Shown here piece after piece: positions 26,224-33,088 of a DNA stretch of 33,088 nt (the stretch's first letter is position 1; every line of letters starts with the position of its first letter). The DNA lies in the NCBI GenBank assembly GCA_030613505.1, contig JAUWLW010000033.1, positions 1 to 33,088 on the forward strand, written 5' to 3'. The position numbers and the translations under genes were made by a program. The stretch comes from Candidatus Zixiibacteriota bacterium. GTDB taxonomy: Bacteria; RBG-13-66-14; B26-G2; WVWN01. Below the pieces are notes generated by a model. That model saw only the letters and a program-made list of their open reading frames with translations, was not told where the DNA came from and did not search any database.

Positions 26224-27807
26224 TTAAGCGTCCAGGATCGCCTCTACTTCTTCCTTATCGACGTCCATGACGTACGGGATCCCGCTGATCGCGGCCGCCT
26301 CCGGCGTAAGCGCGGCCAGGTCGTCGCGCGAGACGTACTCCAGCGCGAACTTCCGGCTGCCGCACATCAGCTGGCGCAAGCCCTGGGCCAGGCGCTCGTA
26401 GTAGGTATACAGGCCGATCGCGCCGGGGGGTAGCTTCTCGAACTCATCGTCGCCCAATTCCTTGCGGAGTTCCGCCGCCGTTACGAAGATCTCATCGAGG
26501 GAGTCGCCGAAGCGCTCGACGTAGACGGGCAACTGGTGCTCGGCAATCGCTCGGCCTATCGTCTTGCCCACCATCGCCGCGGCGATCGGGCCGCGGGCCA
26601 TGCCGACGATTTTGATGAACGGCGCGCCCAACGCGACCGCCTTGAAAATATGGTCTTCGAACGTGAAGCCGCCCGCGGCGACCAGCGGCGCCACGTACTC
26701 GCCCTTATCCGCGAGACGCTTAGTATACTGGTACATCAACGAATGGATTTCGACCGGCGGCACGCCCCACTCGTTCATCATACGCCAGGGACTCATACCG
26801 GTCCCGCCTCCCGCGGCGTCCACCGTCAACAGGTCCAGCTTATATTTGGAGGCGAACTTGACCGCCCGGGCGAGGTCGGCCGGCCGGTACGCGCCGGTCT
26901 TGAGGAAGACGTACTTGGCGCCGGCCTTCCGGATCTCTTCGGCCCGCTGCGCGAACGACTCCTCGGTCACCATACCGACGCGCGAGTGCCGCTCGAACTC
27001 CTTGAACGACCCGCGCTCGAAGGCTTTGATGACGTCCGGGTCCGTCGGGTTGGGCAGGACGACGTAGCCTCGTTCGTACAACAGCTGCGCCTTCTTGAGG
27101 TCGCGGATTTTAACCTCGCCGCCTATGTCCTTGGCGCCCTGGCCCCACTTGAGCTCCACGCACTCCACGCCGAGCTCTTCGATCCCGTACTCCTGGACGC
27201 CGAGTCGCGTATCCTCGACGTTGGCCTGCAGGACGATGGCGCCGTAGCCGTCGCGCTGGTTGTCCTTGAACAGCGCTACGCGGCGTTTTAGGTCCACCGT
27301 ATCCACGACGCGGCCGTTCTTGATTTTGCTCTCCGGGTCCATGCCGACGACGTTCTCGCCGATGGTAAGGCCCGTCCCGGCCAGCGCGGTGCCGATTGCG
27401 AGCCCCTCCCAGTTGTTTTTTGCAATGTTGGTCGAGCCGATGCCGGGGATCATAATCGGCAGGCGGAATTTTATACCGCCGTCGTGACCGAACGTAGTCT
27501 GCAAATTCACGGCGGGGAAAACCGCCTTGTCGCTGTCGGCCTCGATCCCGTGAGCGCCGACGGCGGTTCCCATAATGTTGAAGTGCGAGTAATCGACCGG
27601 GTAAACCTTCTCGGCCGCGGTGGTGATGACGCCGAAGGGTTGGGGATAGATGACCTCGTGGCCTCGGTAGGCCGACTTCCCGATCTCGCACCTGCCGATG
27701 CAGCCGTCCACGCACGTGACGCACATCCCCGAGAGGGGGACGATCGAATCTTCGGTGCGGTTCTTGGTCAGCGTAGCGGCCGAGGCGTTAACCCTGGACA
27801 GTGACAT
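26224..27807 (-). CDS. FMN-binding glutamate-synthase-like protein
   Basis: A 527-aa protein corresponding to the central FMN/Fe-S synthase domain of glutamate synthase large subunits, without the amidotransferase domain. Signatures are IMIPGIGSTNIAKNN, VELKWGQGAKDIGGEV, LLTVDAAGGGTGMSPW and VAAGGFTFEDHIFKAVALGA, typical of an FMN barrel with flavin-phosphate-binding glycines. An N-terminal Cys cluster (GMCVTCVDGCIGRCEIGK) probably binds an iron-sulfur centre. AAAGGAG precedes the start. It is the last gene of the flavoprotein operon, 24 bases after the ferredoxin-like subunit. Lacking the glutaminase domain, it may use ammonia or carry out a different FMN reaction; the true substrate is unknown. 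Confidence 0.9.
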   Translation of the reverse strand: MSLSRVNASAATLTKNRTEDSIVPLSGMCVTCVDGCIGRCEIGKSAYRGHEVIYPQPFGVITTAAEKVYPVDYSHFNIMGTAVGAHGIEADSDKAVFPAVNLQTTFGHDGGIKFRLPIMIPGIGSTNIAKNNWEGLAIGTALAGTGLTIGENVVGMDPESKIKNGRVVDTVDLKRRVALFKDNQRDGYGAIVLQANVEDTRLGVQEYGIEELGVECVELKWGQGAKDIGGEVKIRDLKKAQLLYERGYVVLPNPTDPDVIKAFERGSFKEFERHSRVGMVTEESFAQRAEEIRKAGAKYVFLKTGAYRPADLARAVKFASKYKLDLLTVDAAGGGTGMSPWRMMNEWGVPPVEIHSLMYQYTKRLADKGEYVAPLVAAGGFTFEDHIFKAVALGAPFIKIVGMARGPIAAAMVGKTIGRAIAEHQLPVYVERFGDSLDEIFVTAAELRKELGDDEFEKLPPGAIGLYTYYERLAQGLRQLMCGSRKFALEYVSRDDLAALTPEAAAISGIPYVMDVDKEEVEAILDA

Positions 27808-27831
27808 CTTGGTACGACTCCTTTCCGATCG

Positions 27832-28509
27832 TTACTTCTTTTCGATCTCGCAAGCGACGCAAGGGTCCATATAACACATCATGTCGTCGAACTGTTCCTT
27901 CTCAACACACGGCGGCGCGAGGTTGGCGCACGCGCCGCAGATCGCCTTCTCGGGCTCGGTGTACGTGCAACGGAGCTGGCAGGCCGGACATATATAAATG
28001 CAACCCCCGCAGAGCCGGCATTCCTCGGATTTGATGTCGAACGGCGTGCCGATGCTGCGGCGTTCACCCCGGTTGCGGAAGCCGATGGCCTTGGCCATCA
28101 TCTGTTCCTCGCATATCCGAACGCACAGGCCGCACATAATACAGTCCTCGTACTCCTGTTTGAAGCGCTGGCGGCGGATGTCGTGGGCGGAGGCGAGGTC
28201 CTGGATTACTTTCGATTGCGGGCACGAGGCCAACAAAAGCTCCAGGACCATCTTGCGCGCCCGGAGGACGCGCGTCGAGGCTGTCCGCACTTTTAGGCCT
28301 TCCTCCGCCGGATAGGTACAAGAGGAGACCAGCTTGGCCCGCGGCCCCTCGCCGATCTCGACGACGCACAGGCGGCAGGCGCCGTAGGGCGACAGGCCCT
28401 CGTGGTAGCAGAGCGTCGGGACCGGGAAACCATAAAATTTTGCGGCTTCGAGCAGCGTGGTACCTTCTTCTACCTGGACGTTAAGGCCGTTGAGCGTAAA
28501 ATTAGTCAT
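27832..28509 (-). CDS. NuoG/HoxU-like ferredoxin subunit
   Basis: A 225-aa electron-transfer protein. The N-terminal domain is a plant-type 2Fe-2S ferredoxin (LCYHEGLSPYGACRLCVVEI and SSCTYP). A helical linker follows, then two 4Fe-4S motifs, CIMCGLCVRIC and CRLCGGCIYIC. A Cys-rich tail (CGACANLAPPC and MCYMDPCVACE) may bind a further centre. The order matches HoxU/N-terminal NuoG subunits that carry electrons from an NADH-oxidising flavoprotein. Its ATG overlaps the stop of the NuoF-GltD fusion (ATGA), so the two are translationally coupled. Confidence 0.92.
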   Translation of the reverse strand: MTNFTLNGLNVQVEEGTTLLEAAKFYGFPVPTLCYHEGLSPYGACRLCVVEIGEGPRAKLVSSCTYPAEEGLKVRTASTRVLRARKMVLELLLASCPQSKVIQDLASAHDIRRQRFKQEYEDCIMCGLCVRICEEQMMAKAIGFRNRGERRSIGTPFDIKSEECRLCGGCIYICPACQLRCTYTEPEKAICGACANLAPPCVEKEQFDDMMCYMDPCVACEIEKK

Positions 28510-31500
28510 TCCTGTTTGTCTCCTACCGCTACGACTTCTTCAGGTTCCGCTTCGGTTTGCGTAAACTCGAGGTCGCATCGGAGGCACCGTCGTGCCTCTT
28601 GTCGAGCTACCCCTTCTGTCAAACACTGGTCCACTTCGGCGAAGTTTTTAACCCTCGCCTCGACGCCGAGGTGGAGGACCGCGGCCCGGCCGGCCCCGGC
28701 CTCCTCCTCCTCCGCAACCTCCGCGGGCGCGACGAAGACCTCCGGCAATCGGACCTCGGGCGGTATCGTTAATTCGTAGCCGCGGAGGTAGCGGTCGATG
28801 ACGGCCGCCGCGTTTTTACCGTCCGCGAGCGCCTCGACGACGGTGTCCGGGCCGCGAACGACGTCGCCTCCCGCGAAGACGCCGGGCCGGCCGGTTTCGA
28901 ACGTCTTCGGATCAGTCCGCAACGTTCCCCATTTCGTCACGTCGAGGCCTGCCGCCGCGATACCCTCCGTCTCCGGTTCCTCGCTGATCGCGACTATCAA
29001 CGTATCTAACGGCGCGACGTATTCGCTGCCGGCCACGGCGACCGGCCTACGCCGCCCGGAGGCGTCGCGCGCGCCGAGCTCGTTCTTTATAAATTTCACG
29101 CCGGCCAGGCGACCCTCGGCCTGCTCGACCTCGACGGGCGAAACGAGCGTAACGAGCTCGACGCCCTCGTCCAGCACGGCCTCTATTTCCTCGTCGTACG
29201 CCGGCATCTCTTCCCGCGTCCGGCGATAGTAAATCGTCACGCTCTCGACGCCCTCTTGCCGCACGGCCACCCGGGCCGCATCCACGGCCGAGTTCCCGCC
29301 GCCGACGACGCCTACGCGGCCGCGCGCCAGGCTCTCGCCGTGTAGGTTAAACGCCTTCAGGAAACGCATGGAGGGATATACCCCCTCCGCCTCTTCGCCC
29401 GGCACGCCCAGCTTTCGGCTCCGGTGCGCTCCCAAGGCCAAGAAGACGGCCGCGTAGCCGTCATCGAGGAGGCCGTCGATCGTTACATCTCGGCCGAGCG
29501 CGGTGTTCAGCTCGAGGGTTACGTTATCGTCCAACAGGGCTGCGATCTCCCGCTCCAACACGTCACGCGGGAGGCGATAGGCCGGGATGCCAGCGATCAG
29601 CATGCCTCCCGGTTTATCCTCCGCCTCGAAAACCGTAACTTCATGGCCGGCGAGCGAGAGGTAATGGGCCGCGGCCAGGCCGGCGGGGCCGGCGCCCACG
29701 ACCGCTACCTTCTTCCCGTAAGCGTCGGCCGCCCGCGGCGGCGCATAGGCCGCCGGGTCGGCGCGGTCCGTCACGAAACGCTTTAGCGCCCGAATACCCA
29801 CCGGCGCCTCCCCGGTCGTACCGAGGCGGCACTTCTCCTCGCACGGATGGTTGCATACGCGCGCGCATACGGAGGGGAGCGGGTTGGGTTCGCGAATAAC
29901 GCGATACGCGCCTTCGTAATCGCCCTTCTCCAACAGCGCGACGTACCGCCACGCCTCGGTTCCCAGCGGGCATGCCGCCTGACAGGGCGCCCCGACCAGG
30001 TCCTTACATACAAACGCGTCGCACTTTTTATCGTAAATATGCCGCTCGTACTCGTGGCGATAATACCGGAGCGTGGTCAACACCGGGTTGGGCGCGGACT
30101 GGCCCAGGCCGCACATCGTCGTGTCCTTGACCGCCAGCGCGAGTTCCTCCAGCAACTCGAGATGTTCGGGCGTCCCCCGCCCCTTCGTGATGTCGTCGAG
30201 GAGCTCGTACATCCGCTGCGTTCCCTTGCGGCAGGTGAAGCATTTTCCGCAGGACTCGTCCTTTAAAAAGTTCATAAAGTACCGGGCGATGTCCACCATA
30301 CAGGTGGTCTCGTCCATGACGATCATCCCGCCCGAGCCCATAATCGACCCGACTTTGGCCAGGCTGTCGTAGTCGACCGCAAGGTCGAACATGGAAGCCG
30401 GGATGCAACCGCCGGAGGGGCCGCCGGTCTGCACGGCTTTTATTTTCGCCCGGCCGGAGGGGCCGCCGCCGATATCGTATACTATTTCGTCGATCGTAAT
30501 CCCCATCGGGACTTCGACCAATCCGGTATTCTTTATCTTACCGACCAGCGAGAATATCTTCGTCCCGGTACTGCCGGGGACGCCCACCCGGGCGTACTCC
30601 TCGGCGCCGCGGTTGATTATCACCGGGACGTTGGCCCACGTCTCCACGTTGTTAATACACGTGGGGTGGCCCCAAATCCCCTTCTCGATGGGGTACGGAG
30701 GCCGCTGCCGCGGCTCTCCTGCTTCGCCCTCGATGGACTTTATCAACGCCGTCTCTTCGCCGCAGACGAACGCGCCCGCGCCGCGGACAATCTCGACGTC
30801 GAACAATAAATCCGTGCCCAAGATATTATCGCCCAACAGGCCCAATTCGCGCGCTTGCCGCAGCGCGATGACGAGATGCTTTATAGCCAGCGGGTATTCG
30901 CTTCTCACGTAGACGAAGCCTTTGGTGGCGCCTACGGCAATGCCGCCGATTATCATACCCTCGATTATCAGGTGGGGATTGCCCTCGAGGAGGCTACGGT
31001 CCATATAGGCGCCCGGGTCGCCCTCGTCGGCGTTGCACACAACGTATTTCTGCTCGCCCGGCTTACCGGAGGCTCGGCCCATCTCCCACTTTTTACCGGT
31101 CGGGAAGCCGGCGCCGCCGCGGCCGCGAAGGCCGGAAGCCTTGACTTCATTTATAACCCTTTCGGGATCCGCGTTTAACAAAACCTTTTCCAGCGCGCCG
31201 TATCCGCCGCGCTCGACGTAGTCGAAAATCCTTATCGGGTCCAGCGTCTGGTTGTTGCCGAGGATCGTCCGGGTCTGTTTCTGAAAAAACGGAATATCGG
31301 CCTGGGAGTGGTAGGTTCGCCGTTCGCCGGGCTCGTGGTAGATAAGGTCTTCCTCCACGTACCCGCCCAGGGCGGCCTCGATTACAGGGGGGACGTCTTC
31401 CATCTTCAACTGCGGATACAGGTGCTGCCCCGGCTCCACCACGATAAAGGGGTCCATCTCGCAGAACCCTTGACACCCGGTGATACGCAGTTTGATTTTT

Positions 31501-31682
31501 TCGTGCAGGCCGTGGTCCAGGATGTAACGCTTAATGACGCGTATGACGTCGTTGGAGCCGCTGGCTTGGCCGCCCGTGCCGGCACAGACGACCAACGTCA
31601 GCCCCTCCGTTTCATCCTCGGCTTTTTTTAATACCCGGCGACGAAAATCCACGAACTCGTCTACGGATAACAGCTTTTCCAT
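28506..31682 (-). CDS. NuoF-GltD fusion: NADH-oxidising and FAD/NAD(P) flavoprotein
   Basis: A 1058-aa fusion. Residues ~25-110 form a thioredoxin-like 2Fe-2S domain (Cys33, Cys70, Cys74). Residues ~150-545 are NuoF-like: GLRGRGGAGFPTGKKW for FMN/NADH, CNADEGDPGAYMDRS, an SLBB region, and 4Fe-4S ligands Cys478, 481, 484 and 524. From ~550 a GltD-type unit begins, with Cys pairs at 567/571 and 606/610/614/618. It has an FAD motif (VGAGPAG, 662-668), a second dinucleotide motif (GVVGGGNSA, ~791-799) and GVFAGGDVVRGPDTVVEA near the end. It should pass electrons between NADH, Fe-S centres and a second NAD(P)H/FAD site. AAGGAGA precedes the ATG. The second Cys of the N-terminal cluster is Gly38. 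Confidence 0.93.
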   Translation of the reverse strand: MEKLLSVDEFVDFRRRVLKKAEDETEGLTLVVCAGTGGQASGSNDVIRVIKRYILDHGLHEKIKLRITGCQGFCEMDPFIVVEPGQHLYPQLKMEDVPPVIEAALGGYVEEDLIYHEPGERRTYHSQADIPFFQKQTRTILGNNQTLDPIRIFDYVERGGYGALEKVLLNADPERVINEVKASGLRGRGGAGFPTGKKWEMGRASGKPGEQKYVVCNADEGDPGAYMDRSLLEGNPHLIIEGMIIGGIAVGATKGFVYVRSEYPLAIKHLVIALRQARELGLLGDNILGTDLLFDVEIVRGAGAFVCGEETALIKSIEGEAGEPRQRPPYPIEKGIWGHPTCINNVETWANVPVIINRGAEEYARVGVPGSTGTKIFSLVGKIKNTGLVEVPMGITIDEIVYDIGGGPSGRAKIKAVQTGGPSGGCIPASMFDLAVDYDSLAKVGSIMGSGGMIVMDETTCMVDIARYFMNFLKDESCGKCFTCRKGTQRMYELLDDITKGRGTPEHLELLEELALAVKDTTMCGLGQSAPNPVLTTLRYYRHEYERHIYDKKCDAFVCKDLVGAPCQAACPLGTEAWRYVALLEKGDYEGAYRVIREPNPLPSVCARVCNHPCEEKCRLGTTGEAPVGIRALKRFVTDRADPAAYAPPRAADAYGKKVAVVGAGPAGLAAAHYLSLAGHEVTVFEAEDKPGGMLIAGIPAYRLPRDVLEREIAALLDDNVTLELNTALGRDVTIDGLLDDGYAAVFLALGAHRSRKLGVPGEEAEGVYPSMRFLKAFNLHGESLARGRVGVVGGGNSAVDAARVAVRQEGVESVTIYYRRTREEMPAYDEEIEAVLDEGVELVTLVSPVEVEQAEGRLAGVKFIKNELGARDASGRRRPVAVAGSEYVAPLDTLIVAISEEPETEGIAAAGLDVTKWGTLRTDPKTFETGRPGVFAGGDVVRGPDTVVEALADGKNAAAVIDRYLRGYELTIPPEVRLPEVFVAPAEVAEEEEAGAGRAAVLHLGVEARVKNFAEVDQCLTEGVARQEARRCLRCDLEFTQTEAEPEEVVAVGDKQE

Positions 31683-31719
31683 CAGGTAACGTCTCCTTAT
31701 AACGCCGGGGCCCCAGCCG

Positions 31720-32745
31720 TTATGCTACCGCCGTACCGCTCACGTCCAGCATGTGGCCTTTACAACCGCGCCGCGAACAAATCTGTACGACGCCGCCACC
31801 GCGTACGACCATCGGCACCATCGGCGCGCCGCACTCCGGGCAGGCCGCGGCGCCCCGCAACTCGGCGTGACAGTGCGGGCAAAAGAAGTTAACTACGGCA
31901 TCTTTCGGGGCCTCGTGTTCGGCCTCGACGTTGTAACTGCCGTAGAGACTCGATAATTTTAACCAACCGTGGGTGTGGCCGTGCGATACCGTGACGCGGA
32001 TAGCGGGGTAGCCGTCGATGAGATGCGAAGGGTCCATTAAGCTGTGGTTACACCGCGGGCAATTAACTTCGATCGGGAAGATACGCCGGTCCCCTTCCAC
32101 CTCTACTTTATCGAGGCCGGTAAGCGTATGCGCGAGGATATCTTCCACGTCCTTTATGCCGACGTGGGGGAAATAGTGGCCGTCGACGACCACGACCGGC
32201 CCGAGCGCGCACGCGCCGAGGCAATTTACGGTATCCAAAGTAAATTCACGGTCGTCCGTCGTCTCGCCAGCCGGGATGCCAAGGTGGCGTTCGAACTCTT
32301 TCGCGACGCCGGGGCCGCCGCGAACGTGGCAGGCCGTTCCCAAACAAACGGACACGAGGTGCCTTCCCCGCGGTTTCAAACTGAAGGCCCTATAGAAGGT
32401 GGCGACGGCGTAGACGTCCACCATCGAAGCCCCCGTATTTTCAGCCACTACTTGCAACGCGTGCGTAGGAAGGTAACCGTACTTCGCCTGTATTTCCTCG
32501 AGCATAGCTATGACTGCGCCGCGTTTGCGTCCGTGCCTCTCAACGATCTCGAGAAGGCTCGGCGTCTCGTAGCTCTCAAAAAGGTCGCACTCCCAGATGG
32601 CGACCTCCGTGCTCTTCAATCGGTACGCGCACGTCGGCGCGTGGATACAAGTCGAACAGATCCCGCGATACGTCCCGAGCGCCGCGGGAGCCTCCGCCGC
32701 CCTGGGCGCCCCCGACCTCCCTCCGCGCGTCTTCGTGGGTTGCAT
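31720..32745 (-). CDS. NuoE-like 2Fe-2S subunit with extra N- and C-terminal Cys domains
   Basis: A 341-aa protein. Residues ~65-215 are a NuoE/HoxE-type thioredoxin-like 2Fe-2S domain: YGYLPTHALQVVAENTG, VSVCLGTACHVRG and VNCLGACALGP provide four Cys ligands. The N terminus adds a small Cys4 module (Cys30, Cys33, Cys39, Cys53, ending IWECD), shared with the next gene upstream. The C terminus adds ~110 residues with CPRC, CPHC, CPEC and CSRRGC pairs, resembling zinc ribbons. Normal NuoE proteins are about half this length. AGGAGG precedes the ATG. It probably joins the NuoF part of the downstream fusion. Confidence 0.9.
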   Translation of the reverse strand: MQPTKTRGGRSGAPRAAEAPAALGTYRGICSTCIHAPTCAYRLKSTEVAIWECDLFESYETPSLLEIVERHGRKRGAVIAMLEEIQAKYGYLPTHALQVVAENTGASMVDVYAVATFYRAFSLKPRGRHLVSVCLGTACHVRGGPGVAKEFERHLGIPAGETTDDREFTLDTVNCLGACALGPVVVVDGHYFPHVGIKDVEDILAHTLTGLDKVEVEGDRRIFPIEVNCPRCNHSLMDPSHLIDGYPAIRVTVSHGHTHGWLKLSSLYGSYNVEAEHEAPKDAVVNFFCPHCHAELRGAAACPECGAPMVPMVVRGGGVVQICSRRGCKGHMLDVSGTAVA

Positions 32746-32814
32746 CCCGCCTCCTAACTTAGCGTCGGCGATGGGTTTCTCCAGGAGGTTCGTTCGCGCT
32801 AAAGGCCGTTACGG

Positions 32815-33088
32815 CTACTGGTATTCCTCGCAGTGCCACACGCCTCCGGCCGGCCGCGGAAAAGTGCATTCGTCGCGTGTTTCGCAGTTTTTACACAGGC
32901 CCTGGTACTCGACGGCGTCGAATTCCGCCCGGCGGGACTTGGCCGGTGCGGGAACGACTTCGGAAAGGCCGCCGTTCACCGACGTCCCGCTGAAGTGCAC
33001 GTAATCGTCGTAGTCCTCGCACTCCCAGATCGCGAGGTCCGGGTTCCGGAGGCGGTGGGCGCAATCCGGGGCATAATTACAGGTGGAG
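32815..33088 (-). CDS. Cys-rich protein with repeated Cys4 module (5' end outside window)
   Basis: The reading frame is open from the window edge to a TAG at 32815, giving at least 90 residues. A GTG at 33000 could be read as a start, but the codons before it are clearly coding: STCNYAPDC and LAIWECEDYD match the N-terminal module of the NuoE-like neighbour. A second module, GLCKNCETRDEC then VWHCEEYQ, ends the protein. The pattern is C-x2-C-x5-C-x11-13-C, finishing in W-x-C-E/D. It is probably a metal-binding, cytoplasmic protein. It lies 69 bases before the NuoE-like gene. I do not recognise the family. Confidence 0.75.
   Translation of the reverse strand, partial: STCNYAPDCAHRLRNPDLAIWECEDYDDYVHFSGTSVNGGLSEVVPAPAKSRRAEFDAVEYQGLCKNCETRDECTFPRPAGGVWHCEEYQ

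Follow-up and report, generated by a model that had tools for sequence, protein, structure and literature searches.

A widespread gene unit that joins a Bfu-type redox core to a distant relative of the glutamate synthase FMN subunit

The contig JAUWLW010000033.1 of a Candidatus Zixiibacteriota bacterium (33,088 nucleotides of the 2.86-Mb assembly GCA_030613505.1), analyzed here over its whole length and called the window, ends in four adjacent genes for a NuoE-like protein, a NuoF-GltD fusion, a HoxU-like protein, and a GltB-like protein. This unit is an apparently undescribed, widespread variant of the Bfu family of HydABC-like enzymes, for which, as far as sequence can tell, the label "bifurcating" is plausible. 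We propose, with about even confidence, that its products form a soluble four-subunit redox complex with a Bfu core, in which the GltB-like subunit would be the third-substrate module and would serve glutamate or ammonium metabolism.

The unit is read from the minus strand in the order 90-aa open reading frame (ORF), NuoE-like, NuoF-GltD, HoxU-like, and GltB-like (Table 1), and the short gaps between the last four genes (37, -4, and 24 bp) lead us to expect that these form an operon. A preliminary description of the window had placed five genes here, of which four prove complete and one truncated; it had seen two flavin sites in one fusion polypeptide, and had called for a comparison of the operon elsewhere. 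The genes lie where it put them, and the fusion does combine a NuoF half, with a flavin mononucleotide (FMN) and NAD(H) site, and a GltD half, with a flavin adenine dinucleotide (FAD) and NADP(H) site. As for the comparison, the order NuoE-NuoF(+/-GltD)-HoxU-GltB-like is kept in many phyla. A scan of genome contigs for the GltB-like family confirmed at least 579 stretches, of which the best 80 were taken as named loci. All 80 hold the GltB-like gene, and in nearly all of them NuoE-NuoF(+/-GltD)-HoxU stands ahead of it in the same order and on one strand, the exceptions being mostly contig ends (in L104, the contig begins at the GltB-like gene). Their record titles name Planctomycetota, Zixibacteria, Acidobacteriota, Bacteroidota, "Deltaproteobacteria," Spirochaetes, Aminicenantes, Bacillota, and one Methanophagales archaeon. 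This constancy among the best 80 loci, across so many phyla, argues for a conserved unit and not a chance arrangement. Of the 386 genomes with any level of relatedness to that of the window, 62 encode a GltB-like protein. Our literature search found no paper describing such an operon; a NuoE/NuoF/NuoG-like cluster without characterized homologues, possibly a different one, has been reported by the Dehalobacteriia authors.

The assignment to the Bfu family comes from the NuoF half of the fusion, whose closest solved relatives are the Bfu/HydB, NfnB, and Stn subunits (661 bits to the Bfu HydB 7t2r). The B2 site of A. mobile BfuB is made of C438, C476 (replaced by Thr in two thirds of the BfuBs), H525, C531, and C536 (PMC9304861), and every one of these ligands has its counterpart in the window at a constant offset of +23. 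The H-x5-C-x4-C part of the set is found in 77/77 homologues, T499 being read from the window sequence. A complete B2 ligand set at the published spacing thus identifies the NuoF half as a Bfu (HydB-type) core. The ligands of the other centers agree: those of B1 (C478, C481, C484, and C524) are kept in homologues, those of C1 in the NuoE-like subunit (C134, C139, C175, and C179) are conserved, with C1 motifs in 61-63 of 64 homologues, and the A1 cysteines of the HoxU-like subunit are kept in 85/85. The latter subunit also has two 4-Cys [4Fe-4S] motifs (C123-C133 and C164-C174) and a conserved Cys-rich tail (C177...C220), its predicted model being of low confidence from residue 119 on, tail included; in Pfam, its 225 residues contain no hydrogenase domain and no H-cluster.

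The part of BfuB that follows the core is exchangeable. By Pfam, the ferredoxin-type B3/B4 domain (IPR017896) is not found in the window BfuB, and DPD_II and GltD stand in its place. The closest solved relatives of this GltD half are the GltD domains of StnC and NfnA, and a FAD motif together with the NADPH-type YRRxxxEMPA occurs in 49/49 fusion homologues. A ferredoxin-type 2[4Fe-4S] arm was counted in 28 of 77 aligned sequences, or 26 once two truncated records of the GltD type are subtracted. Placed by parsimony on a HoxU+GltB tree and on a NuoF-core tree, the arm type changes 15 to 18 times, at least 6 of these changes being forced by well-supported branches; the trees are quick ones with many weak forks, and the exact number is soft. 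On this phylogenetic evidence, the ferredoxin and GltD forms have been exchanged many times; as several exchanges appear on both trees, the idea that the GltD form arose only once was rejected. An exchange is seen within the genus of the window genome, where genome G001 has the operon with the ferredoxin-type arm. Compared with the window, NuoE/NuoF of G001 stand at 69-74%, whereas HoxU and GltB stand at 89-92%. Since the whole NuoE/NuoF pair is the more divergent, a swap of the C-terminal domain alone is doubtful, and a cassette was probably replaced.

A second NuoF-GltD fusion, 54% identical, is encoded in the window genome (G000:C7:24291-27383, locus L221), in an operon with HdrC-, HdrB-, and HdrA-like genes, NuoE, and a NuoG-like subunit. 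In G001 (contig C11, L222), the corresponding BfuB belongs to the short ferredoxin type, and a PF01058 gene (NiFe-hydrogenase small subunit/20-kDa) comes next. In the genomes compared (L221, L222, L225, and L227), both operons tend to share one C-terminal type per genome.

As judged by profile alignment, the GltB-like subunit is a distant homologue of the FMN domain of glutamate synthase (GltS), the probability given by hhalign against the GltS FMN subunits being 97.8%. Its AlphaFold2 model (mean predicted local distance difference test score, pLDDT, of 84) is an FMN-type TIM barrel. Residues E151, K220, Q223, K226, and R246, which hardly any homologue lacks, align with E903, K966, Q969, K972, and R992 of the ferredoxin-dependent GltS of Synechocystis (1llw). 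The latter are presumed to bind 2-oxoglutarate in the GltS crystal structures, a role for which a text search found no confirmation. The only matches of a profile search in the PDB, designed TIM barrels, were judged spurious. The GltB-like proteins linked to Bfu genes make up essentially one clade, and its sister (L179:6864-11936) lies in an operon of GATase, canonical GltB2, GltB-like, and GXGXG genes, with two FMN proteins side by side. We infer that an FMN protein of nitrogen metabolism joined a Bfu core in a single recruitment. A third GltB-family protein of the window genome (G000:C30, L002:1414-2853) has an N-terminal rubredoxin-like Cys region and lies outside GltS clusters in the stretch seen.

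The preliminary description had suggested that the reaction may be something other than glutamate synthesis. Gene neighborhoods suggest a link to glutamate and ammonium metabolism. At GltB-like loci without the adjacent operon, genes for NrpR, ANTAR-GAF, glutamine synthetase, glutamate dehydrogenase (GDH), GltS, or carbamoyl-phosphate synthase (CarAB) lie within ~8 kb in 14/32, three of the 32 (L161, L155, and L157) being borderline or not fully classed. The same genes occur in 0/20 random stretches, a small control that comes partly from the same genomes and from fewer genomes than the sample; as the gene list was chosen after some loci had been seen, this contrast is indicative. Locus L161, where NuoEF lies beside a GltB-like gene, was read as a cluster of the Stn/Nfn type with a standalone GltB-like gene alongside. 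Near the named operon loci, a GDH gene is found in 9/80, in several phyla and sometimes directly downstream (L110, with a 4-bp overlap, and L035). In L141, L142, and L144, a standalone GltB-like gene is followed by a small Pol-beta-type nucleotidyltransferase gene and then carAB, with ANTAR-GAF in two of them.

Known systems resemble the unit in parts. Shared with the HydABC-like Bfu enzymes are a BfuB with the FMN/NADH domain, B1, and B2, a BfuC with C1, and a BfuA with A1 that feeds a third-substrate module. Unlike in those enzymes, the A2 motif is absent here and GltD replaces B3/B4; moreover, GltB-like proteins are not among the third-substrate modules described for them, the words "glutamate," "GltB," and "GltD" being absent from the main text (PMC9304861). 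The arm replacement itself has a precedent in the BfuB of the Hydrogenedentota sub-type I [FeFe]-hydrogenase, in which B3/B4 gave way to DPD_II and a C-terminal FAD/NAD(P) domain, but the BfuA of that enzyme carries an H-cluster, whereas here a short HoxU-like and a GltB-like subunit are found (PMC11406978). The Nfn-Bfu transhydrogenase StnABC combines a HydBC-like core with a GltD-like NADPH domain, and the [4Fe-4S] motif "EAxRCLxC" C-terminal to that domain is shared with the window fusion; in contrast to the latter, it bears GltD on the BfuA-type subunit StnC and not on BfuB, and it has no GltB-like subunit (PMC10482914). Glutamate synthase, either GltBD or the archaeal-type split GltS, is alike in the homologous FMN domain, the GltD-type NADPH domain, and the residues that align with its presumed 2-oxoglutarate site, but the present unit differs in the fusion of GltD to an NADH-binding BfuB and in the features missing from its GltB-like subunit (see below). 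The F420-dependent GltS of anaerobic methanotrophic archaea (ANME) was rejected as a match because it is different.

In the complex that we propose, NAD(H) and the FMN of the NuoF half would exchange electrons, which would pass from B1 through the HoxU-like subunit (A1, the two [4Fe-4S] centers, and the Cys-rich tail) to the FMN of the GltB-like subunit, which would handle the third substrate. The arm after B2 would be an exchangeable carrier port, for NADP(H) via DPD_II and GltD here and for ferredoxin via 2[4Fe-4S] in some relatives, so that the coupled partners would be NADH and NADPH in the window and ferredoxin in operons of the ferredoxin type. The most likely reaction of the GltB-like subunit would be the reduction of 2-iminoglutarate, i.e., the formation of glutamate from 2-oxoglutarate and ammonia, or the opposite reaction. 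The potential of the 2-oxoglutarate plus NH4+/glutamate couple is ~-0.12 V, and NADH could therefore be the mid-potential donor. In a speculative and quite improbable extension, the complex bifurcates with NADH as this donor: the GltB-like subunit would aminate 2-oxoglutarate downhill and thereby power the uphill reduction of ferredoxin (ferredoxin-type operons) or of NADP+ (GltD-type operons), the low-potential carrier being set by the BfuB arm; if true, nitrogen assimilation would yield low-potential reductant.

Several observations weigh against the proposed complex, and some of them concern its wiring. The potential of the amination lies so far above that of NADH that little would be gained by confurcation. 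The HoxU-like subunit has no His-Cys3 A2 motif, of which the alignment leaves only C96, and the electron path is uncertain for this reason; according to Schut et al., all BfuA have A2 (PMC9304861). Having neither the ferredoxin-type domain nor A2, the window copy is not a full Bfu member by their strict criteria. Moreover, the B5-like N-terminal domain of the NuoF half, variable among homologues, has three cysteines (C33, C70, and C74) and a Gly at the fourth position. Of the "candidate bifurcating oxidoreductase" of the preliminary description, the Bfu-type core thus stands, by its closest relatives and its complete B2, but with B3/B4 replaced by GltD, A2 absent, and three cysteines in B5, bifurcation itself cannot be asserted. 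The same three features, the nitrogen-gene context, and the published report that a HydB without B3/B4 does not bifurcate (PMC11406978) would suit a complex of the same composition that works as an ordinary glutamate synthase or dehydrogenase, fed by NAD(P)H and ammonia, its Bfu core being just a diaphorase. We consider this unlikely, though the most serious of the alternatives: B2, which has been described as confined to the bifurcating members, is kept without exception in 77/77 homologues, the ferredoxin arm persists in 26-28 sister operons, and a simple diaphorase would not need two separate pyridine-nucleotide sites.

The other adverse points concern the substrate. The homology of the GltB-like subunit to GltS is distant: phmmer against the PDB gave no match, and the model finds matches throughout the FMN TIM-barrel superfamily, GltS being one of many. 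No Cys stands at the positions of the [3Fe-4S] ligands C417/C423/C428 in the canonical alignment, and Pfam finds neither a glutaminase domain (GATase_2), as had been said of this subunit before, nor a GXGXG domain in the window operon; phmmer found neither among the ORFs of the 80 named loci. The window genome encodes a separate, complete glutamate synthase (contig C6), which would make plain glutamate synthesis redundant and argues for a wider role of the complex, and a nitrogen gene is nearby in only 14/98 Bfu-linked loci. This redundancy, the distance from GltS, the superfamily-wide fold matches, and, in L179, a GltB-like gene adjoining a complete GltS operon would fit a subunit that uses another substrate (a keto or imino acid, or another FMN-barrel reaction) or that senses ammonium or 2-oxoglutarate in regulation. 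We hold this to be rather improbable, since the residues aligned to the presumed 2-oxoglutarate site are kept and the neighbors are repeatedly glutamate or glutamine genes.

Finally, GltB-like genes without Bfu genes in ~30 sampled loci indicate that the protein can function alone, which would allow two enzymes sharing nothing but regulation, an Stn/Bfu-like transhydrogenase (NuoE, NuoF-GltD, and HoxU) and an independent GltB-like protein; this we think very unlikely given the essentially single Bfu-linked clade, the near-constant adjacency, and the HoxU-like partner with its conserved Cys-rich tail, and because HoxU has no catalytic domain, which would leave the Bfu part of ferredoxin-type operons without a third-substrate module.

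The remaining features of the locus are gathered in Table 1. The truncated 90-aa ORF has the motif GLCxxCxxRxxCxFPRPxGGVWHCEEY and no family match in Pfam or NCBIfam; homologues lie upstream of the operon in ~34/80 loci, and a GAF histidine kinase with a sigma-54 response regulator does so in ~37/80. The zinc-ribbon-like domain at the C-terminus of the NuoE-like subunit exists on its own as well, as a 134-aa protein (L035:4236-4640).

Table 1. Genes, domains, and motifs of the Bfu/GltB-like unit in the window
Feature	Position	Strand	Remarks
Small Cys-motif ORF	33087-32815	minus	90 aa, 5'-incomplete, runs off contig end
NuoE-like gene	32745-31720	minus	341 aa, complete
NuoE/BfuC-like subunit, thioredoxin-like [2Fe-2S] domain (C1)	31720..32745	minus	PF01257 2e-46
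NuoE-like N-terminal Cys motif	32569..32670	minus	resembles upstream 90-aa protein; tblastn cross-matches
NuoE-like C-terminal zinc-ribbon-like domain	31741..32082	minus	~80% of homologues
NuoF-GltD fusion gene	31682-28506	minus	1058 aa, complete; Pfam order NuoF, then DPD_II/GltD
NuoF/BfuB half	30015..31682	minus	PF01512+PF10589; FMN + NAD(H) site, [4Fe-4S] B1, N-terminal B5-like domain
B2 [2Fe-2S] ligand set	30006..30302	minus	C461, T499, H548, C554, C559
DPD_II 2[4Fe-4S] + GltD-like FAD/NADP(H) half	28509..30014	minus	PF14691, PF07992
HoxU-like gene	28509-27832	minus	225 aa, complete
HoxU/BfuA-like subunit	27832..28509	minus	PF13510+Fer4; A1 [2Fe-2S], two 4-Cys [4Fe-4S] motifs
GltB-like gene	27807-26224	minus	527 aa, complete
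GltB-like FMN TIM-barrel subunit	26224..27807	minus	PF01645 9.2e-13, 48.5 bits, single partial stretch
GltB-like N-terminal SGxCx2Cx3CxGxC motif	27688..27723	minus	putative Fe-S ligands; 84/85 homologues

Our analysis may help in annotating proteins now named "glutamate synthase-related." The mechanism of bifurcation in the Bfu family is debated, and one and the same complex with either a ferredoxin or an NADP(H) port, swapped repeatedly, would constitute a natural experiment on the part played by the B3/B4 arm. If confirmed, the proposed complex would tie the electron-bifurcating Bfu core to glutamate and ammonium metabolism in many, mostly uncultured phyla.

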